NCBI RefSeq assembly: GCF_042242105.1
Contig: NC_092032.1
Location: 7,352,415 to 7,416,414, forward strand
Reading direction: 5' to 3'
DNA: 64,000 nucleotides
From: Pempheris klunzingeri
Lineage: Eukaryota; Chordata; Actinopteri; Acropomatiformes; Pempheridae
Part shown: positions 32,249 to 33,133 of the stretch, one piece after another
How positions within the stretch are numbered: the first letter of the stretch is position 1
Layout: each line of letters begins with the position of its first letter
Position numbers and translations under genes: made by a program
Notes under the pieces: model-generated
The model's input: only the letters and a program-made list of their open reading frames with translations
What the model was told of the DNA's origin: nothing
The model's database searches: none

Positions 32249-33133
32249 TCAGTCCGTCTCCTGTTTCTTCAGGTACTCAGCGCCCCATGACAGTGGAAGC
32301 AGCTCCTCCAACGTCATCATGGTGTAGGATCCATCCACCCTGGTCATGAAGACGGGTATATCACCAAACTGAGAAGGGAGAGATGAGGTCAGAGAGACAG
32401 GGGCAACACCACATGCATGTGTGTGTTCTCATATGACAGCTTAAATGAATCAATCTGTCAGTCACAAGTCAACAGAGCTGCTTTGATGTTGTTTTATCTT
32501 GAAGTGCGTTACCTCTCTTATGACCTGTTGGCAGGTGCCACAAGGAGGGATCACCCAGTCCTCCAGGTCACTGCAGGGAGAGACTTTTGATAAAAGTCTG
32601 GCCTGTCTCTTGGCAACACATTTAACATACATGCCACTATACTGAAGACATCCTCAAATCAATTTCTATTCAAATCAGAGATGCATTAACGTGAATTGTA
32701 AACTGTCAAACTAATATGCATATAAGTATTACCTAGAAACTGCTATAGCCTTAAATTTCCTGTATCCTTCGGAGACAGCTTTGTTTATAGTAGTCCTCTT
32801 CGCACACAGACCCAGGTAGAAACAAGCATTTTCAACATTGCAACCTGCCAGTAATAAAGATTATTAATATTCAATTTAAGGGTCTGTTTTTACTGTTTTT
32901 CGCCAAATCAGTAAGAAATATGTCAGCAAAAGGAAGGAACATATATGAGCACGATCTCAAAACAAGCCGAGATGACGTTTTACCTGTGAAGATCTTTCCG
33001 TCCTCTGTTAACAGAACTGATCCCACTCGGAGTTGGCTGTAAGGACAGTAAGAGAACTCTTTGGCCTTGTGGGACTCTTGGATAAGAGATTTGATCCAGT
33101 CGTCGGCATCATTGGTTCATATAGGTTTGCCAT
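32249..33133 (-). CDS. cda: Cytidine deaminase, frameshifted near its start and lacking the catalytic glutamate
   Basis: The family hydrolyses cytidine and deoxycytidine to uridine and deoxyuridine in pyrimidine salvage, as a zinc-dependent tetramer of about 146 residues per subunit. Exons on the minus strand are 33133-32984, 32844-32733, 32570-32513 and 32368-32249, with GT-AG junctions. Family motifs seen are [20 protein letters not shown] (substrate contacts), [21 protein letters not shown] (two zinc cysteines) and the C-terminal [12 protein letters not shown]. Two things are wrong. First, the only good start, 33133-33131 in context AAATGG, is one base out of frame with the rest of exon 1, and the productive frame has a stop at 33119-33117. 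Exon 1 is 150 nt where 151 would be needed. Second, the catalytic Glu of the family's C-A-E motif is Lys (AAG, 32800-32798). Zinc ligands, introns and the stop are otherwise intact. It may be a young unprocessed pseudogene, a dead paralogue, or a true gene with one sequence error plus the Lys change. Confidence 0.85.

Follow-up and report, generated by a model that had tools for sequence, protein, structure and literature searches.

A cytidine deaminase paralogue of Pempheris klunzingeri with a broken start and a replaced catalytic glutamate is probably a recently lost, unprocessed pseudogene

In human cytidine deaminase (CDA), the zinc ligands are C65, C99 and C102, and Glu67 acts in proton handling (PMC12386326). 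ADAT3, by comparison, is a protein in which this essential glutamate is usually replaced, the replacement being common among its orthologues (PMC7713142); it resembles in this the cda-like gene of Pempheris klunzingeri (the rough bullseye), where the catalytic glutamate has likewise been replaced and the zinc site kept. The two differ in that the replacement is usual in ADAT3 and a protein is made, whereas in Pempheris none of the eight other records from the same clade shares the replacement and the start of the gene is broken. Within the same genome, a further point of comparison is provided by cda b, which has the same four-exon layout as the cda-like gene, with exons 2 and 3 of equal length (112 and 58 nt). 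Unlike the cda-like gene, cda b is fully open and carries normal CAER and PCGGCRQ motifs, and the cda b records of other fish fall in a different clade.

The window, that is, the whole 64,000-nt stretch of P. klunzingeri DNA that was analysed, contains a cytidine deaminase (cda) gene of four exons, which occupies 33133-32249 of the minus strand (Table 1). All three of its introns have AG/GT borders and an AATAAA is found beyond the stop, just as the sequence-only reading of this DNA had claimed. Read in the family frame 3' of a TGA at 33119-33117, the gene gives 140 residues that end at the normal stop. This read matches human cytidine deaminase 1mq0 with 169.5 bits (E 3.9e-49) and contains the PF00383 deaminase domain, which scores 55.8 bits against a cut-off of 25. 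The three zinc cysteines, one from the C-A-E motif and two from PCxxC, are present in the read as C58, C92 and C95, and the NVENAC stretch has also been kept.

Table 1. Positions of the parts of the cda-like gene in the window, and of the repeat units found at cda b.
Feature	Position	Strand	Remark
cda-like exon 1	32984..33133	-	150 nt from ATG 33133-33131; start frameshifted
cda-like exon 2	32733..32844	-	112 nt; carries Glu-to-Lys codon 32800-32798
cda-like exon 3	32513..32570	-	58 nt; zinc cysteines kept; A94T and R96Q
cda-like exon 4	32249..32368	-	120 nt; normal stop TGA 32251-32249
AATAAA, candidate poly(A) signal	31968..31973	-	
Candidate upstream exon	33275..33405	-	ATG 33405 open to donor after 33275; in silico only
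cda b tandem repeat units	2286-3761 and 3839-5318 of C2:7801500-7808500		

The cda-like gene sits between MFI/C11orf65, its upstream neighbour, and POMP (proteasome maturation protein), downstream. The former occupies about 34289-36454 of the minus strand and matches the P. klunzingeri MFI protein P0121; its exons agree with that protein at 96% as searched, the differences lying at exon joins, and are 100% identical to it away from splice edges. The POMP exons, at 29285-30875, are on the minus strand as well, the same strand as the cda-like gene; two joined exons yielded a UMP1 domain, and the remaining pieces were identified by eye. Three further features are on the plus strand. A tRNA-Cys (GCA) gene at 31489-31561 stands about 400 nt beyond the poly(A) signal of the presumably dead gene, on the opposite strand to it; a Y RNA match was obtained at 27185-27289 (63.1 bits, with a gathering score of 38); and residues 152-196 of a 204-aa open frame at 14593-15207 match the DDE_Tnp_1_7 transposase family, which is of the piggyBac type.

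The frame opened by ATG 33133 runs into a TAA at 33010-33008 after 41 codons. Indeed, all four ATGs of exon 1 (33133, 33120, 33112 and 33109) are out of the family frame, in which the first methionine is residue 109 of 140 and lies in exon 4. Going upstream, the family frame runs into the TGA at 33119-33117. An exon opened by the nearest AG 3' of this stop would begin at 33076, which is already within the family residues. The earlier claim that this TGA shuts the productive frame, with no usable AG or ATG ahead of the family residues, is therefore upheld. Exon 1 had also been described as one nucleotide short of the 151 needed to join exon 2 in frame, and at 150 nt this is true modulo 3; however, the three orthologues from Enoplosus, Plectropomus and Pampus (P0001-P0003) point to a different length change. 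In these records the D/E-A-D-D-W motif is preceded by seven codons (21 nt), versus 23 nt in Pempheris, which suggests, as judged from the relatives, a net gain of two nucleotides rather than the loss of one. Against the reading as a dead gene stands that this is the only frame lesion in about 420 coding nucleotides, and that splice sites, zinc cysteines and stop codon have all been preserved.

The second class of lesion affects residues that are otherwise fixed. The sequence-only reading had reported that C-A-E has become C-A-K, and this is confirmed: codon 32800-32798 is read directly as AAG (Lys), and the catalytic column holds Glu in all 228 homologues examined. These homologues comprise the best 120 of 2801 matches from the search with the read-through protein and 108 further records from the best 120 of 7993 matches to cda b. 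In the same set, the column of the PCGxCRQ arginine holds Arg in 228 of 228, and Gln is found in the Pempheris cda-like gene. This Arg-to-Gln change is a second conserved-residue lesion, absent from the earlier note. That note had listed the PCGTC cysteines among the features that persist; both cysteines have indeed been kept, but the motif itself is altered, with T in place of A and the adjoining CRQ reading CQQ.

Eight records group with the Pempheris read: one each from Enoplosus, Plectropomus, Pampus and Sparus, and two each from Acanthochromis and Amphiprion. The clade received support of 100/98 for nine rows and 98/87 for eight in a tree of the window read and 60 of the 120 records. A second tree, which held five of the eight clade records and warned of long branches, gave 97/85 for four rows. 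The Enoplosus armatus cda-like record (P0001), a member of the same fast-evolving clade, is 90% identical to the Pempheris read over its whole length, and the Plectropomus record is 87% identical. Unlike Pempheris, P0001-P0003 have an in-frame start, the Glu of CAER, Ala63 and the Arg of CRQ. The comparison of the Lys position across related fish, which had been proposed as a check, found Lys in none of the eight other clade records.

The clade may or may not be the percomorph descendant of cda a. In the second tree, with its warning of long branches, a grouping of the clade with the six records assigned here to cda a (P0006, P0007, P0013, P0023, P0032 and P0061), four of which carry that name, was rejected (p-AU 0.010); a grouping with P0006 and P0007 alone was not (p-AU 0.055). 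Among the matches listed, records of the cda-like paralogue come from far fewer fish than those of cda b, the search with cda b having listed many percomorph species among the best 120 of 7993. No Pempheris cda-like entry was present among the best 120 of 2801 protein matches, which, being clustered at 90% identity, may conceal one.

Five of the clade records are unusual in exon 1. In both Amphiprion records the start is odd and the last part of exon 1 is missing. Exon 1 could not be recognised at all in either Acanthochromis record, and the Sparus record begins with unrelated residues; Glu and Arg are kept in all five. All five are automatic predictions, and their appearance hints that exon 1 may have decayed repeatedly, or that the cda-like paralogue may have been lost frequently, within the clade.

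As a protein-level stand-in for dN/dS, the private changes of each sequence were counted over the 131 columns filled in the window read, P0001, P0002 and P0003, the records with odd exon 1 (P0004, P0005, P0008, P0009 and P0024) having been left out. A column was taken as conserved if it was at least 90% conserved among 112 non-clade homologues, and 44 of the 131 columns qualified. The Pempheris read has eight private changes (A34V, E60K, A63T, K73R, R87W, A94T, R96Q and K111R), four of which fall at conserved columns. The three orthologues have 3, 6 and 12 private changes, respectively, and touch no conserved column, so that the contrast is 4/8 versus 0/21 pooled (Fisher one-sided p = 0.003), albeit from few changes and three orthologues. 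Furthermore, the Pempheris share fits the share of conserved columns (44/131; p = 0.45), while the pooled orthologue share departs from it (p = 0.0002). These proportions indicate that constraint on the Pempheris cda-like gene has probably been relaxed. Private changes were used because the raw count of departures is not decisive alone: over the 44 conserved columns Pempheris has six departures and P0001-P0003 two each, but the records with odd exon 1 have five to nine, and the distant homologue P0070 has six. The raw count was accordingly dropped as sole evidence.

A search of the genome with the Enoplosus orthologue, carried out exon by exon on one haplotype, yielded 13 matches, all of them at one of three loci: the window locus on C21, cda b (C2) or a cda of the zgc:103586 type (C23). 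Within this one-haplotype assembly, no further copy of the cda-like paralogue was found besides the C21 locus. The exons of cda b (C2:7802533-7804399) join in frame and encode 165 residues, among them the CAER and PCGGCRQ motifs. The coding exons of the zgc:103586-type gene were found without the first one, and these carry CAERTA and PCGACRQ. The sequence-only reading had proposed a search for a second, intact cda in the same genome, and this search thus succeeded, with an in-frame cda b on C2 as well as zgc:103586-type exons with normal motifs on C23. At cda b, a unit of about 1.5 kb that carries exons 3 and 4 is duplicated in tandem, the two units being 98.8% identical, and the same protein results whichever pair of these exons is used. 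A search of the genome with PF00383 added two more distant deaminases, presumably ADAT3 and DCTD.

Taken together, these results make it very probable that the locus is an unprocessed pseudogene, left by the recent loss of a cda paralogue that percomorphs have between MFI/C11orf65 and POMP. Disabling lesions are present and the exon-intron structure has been retained; a processed copy is ruled out by the introns. The ancestral protein, like other members of its family, presumably bound zinc and deaminated cytidine. The start frameshift leads from the first ATG to a stop after 41 codons, and with introns downstream of this stop, nonsense-mediated decay of the transcript would be expected. Missense changes at fixed residues, catalytic Glu to Lys and PCGxCRQ Arg to Gln, form a second class of lesion. 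The loss was presumably tolerated, as cda b and the zgc:103586-type cda remain in the genome and may compensate for it, and the splice sites and most residues probably persist because the loss is recent.

The reading of the locus as a dead gene must be weighed against the possibility that the lesions are errors of assembly or base calling and that the gene is intact in the animal. In favour of an error, the frame is broken by only a small change in length close to the start. Yet haplotype 1 of the fPemKlu1 assembly, which the searched genome matches, has a QV of 57.65, or about two errors per million bases, at a HiFi coverage of 104x (PMC12488967), and base-calling errors are very unlikely because of this quality. 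The frameshift and both missense changes, at columns that are invariant in the 228 homologues, would moreover all have to be wrong, and nowhere at the lesions does a single base repeat more than three times in a row; this explanation has next to no probability. A null allele that still segregates, broken on the searched haplotype and intact on the other haplotype or in most of the population, would be compatible with lesions that look young and with the search of one assembly (haplotype 1). However, conserved sites have changed several times independently, which points to a period of absent constraint and not to a single new null allele, and makes this alternative highly improbable.

The main result standing against the pseudogene reading is a candidate in-frame alternative first exon. 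From ATG 33405, and from 33381 in the same frame, the sequence runs without a stop as far as a donor after 33275, which scores 8.2 versus 3.9, 2.0 and 2.8 for the normal donors when ad hoc weights are used. Between 33119 and 33030 there are six AGs, of which only the one before 33036 gives an in-frame join with this donor; on the same ad hoc weights this acceptor scores 7.5, and the normal ones score 4.8, 4.1 and 7.5. The product of this join would lack the first helix and YCPY, and would still contain Lys and Gln. By its title, one paper cited in PMC12386326 reportedly deals with a role of human Tyr33 in tetramer stability; Tyr33 is the Tyr of CPYS in the human sequence. When the 400 nt upstream were redrawn 2000 times from a first-order Markov model, with the place of the donor fixed, any open phase-2 ATG arose in 597 draws and one at least as long in 32. 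The stretch from 33405 to 33275 may therefore be an exon of the 5' untranslated region, may be open by chance, or may supply a genuine alternative start.

If it were a real start, joining 33405-33275 to 33036 could give a zinc-binding, inactive subunit that caps or regulates a tetramer of the cda b or zgc:103586 type, so that the gene would be kept as a pseudoenzyme. On paper, such a route is in frame and has a donor that beats all three normal ones and an acceptor equal to the best of them, by the ad hoc scores; the zinc cysteines and the NVENAC stretch are retained; and there is precedent in the superfamily in yeast ADAT3, which has Val for the catalytic Glu and a structural role (PMC7713142). 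Conversely, the route removes first-helix residues and YCPY, an open frame of this kind arises by chance at the rates given above, Lys is peculiar to Pempheris within the clade, other conserved residues have changed besides the catalytic Glu, and the normal exon 1 has no usable start. A kept capping or regulating subunit, which the sequence-only reading had offered as its second option, thus has little in its favour, and we regard it as a very unlikely account of the locus. Exceedingly unlikely are two more elaborate schemes, namely a recast gene in which an upstream exon provides a new N-terminus instead of the first helix and the zinc domain, with its Lys and Gln, serves as a non-catalytic partner of the active cytidine deaminases, or partial reversal in RNA, through A-to-I editing, of the presumed G-to-A changes in the Lys codon, both Thr codons and the Gln codon.

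Recent decay, the first option of the sequence-only reading, is by comparison well supported by the assembly QV, the Arg-to-Gln change, the private changes, the intact orthologues and the other cda genes of the genome. The original observation is thus confirmed and extended, and in all likelihood the gene is simply dead, in an ordinary way and since fairly recent times. A literature search on cytidine deaminase pseudogenes in teleosts gave immune topics among the matches listed.

If the gene is indeed dead, the locus should carry a pseudogene label in annotation. It would then be a further case in which spiny-rayed fish have lost a paralogue redundant for pyrimidine salvage, and it raises the question of why, among the matches listed, so many fewer fish have a record of this third cda copy than of cda b.
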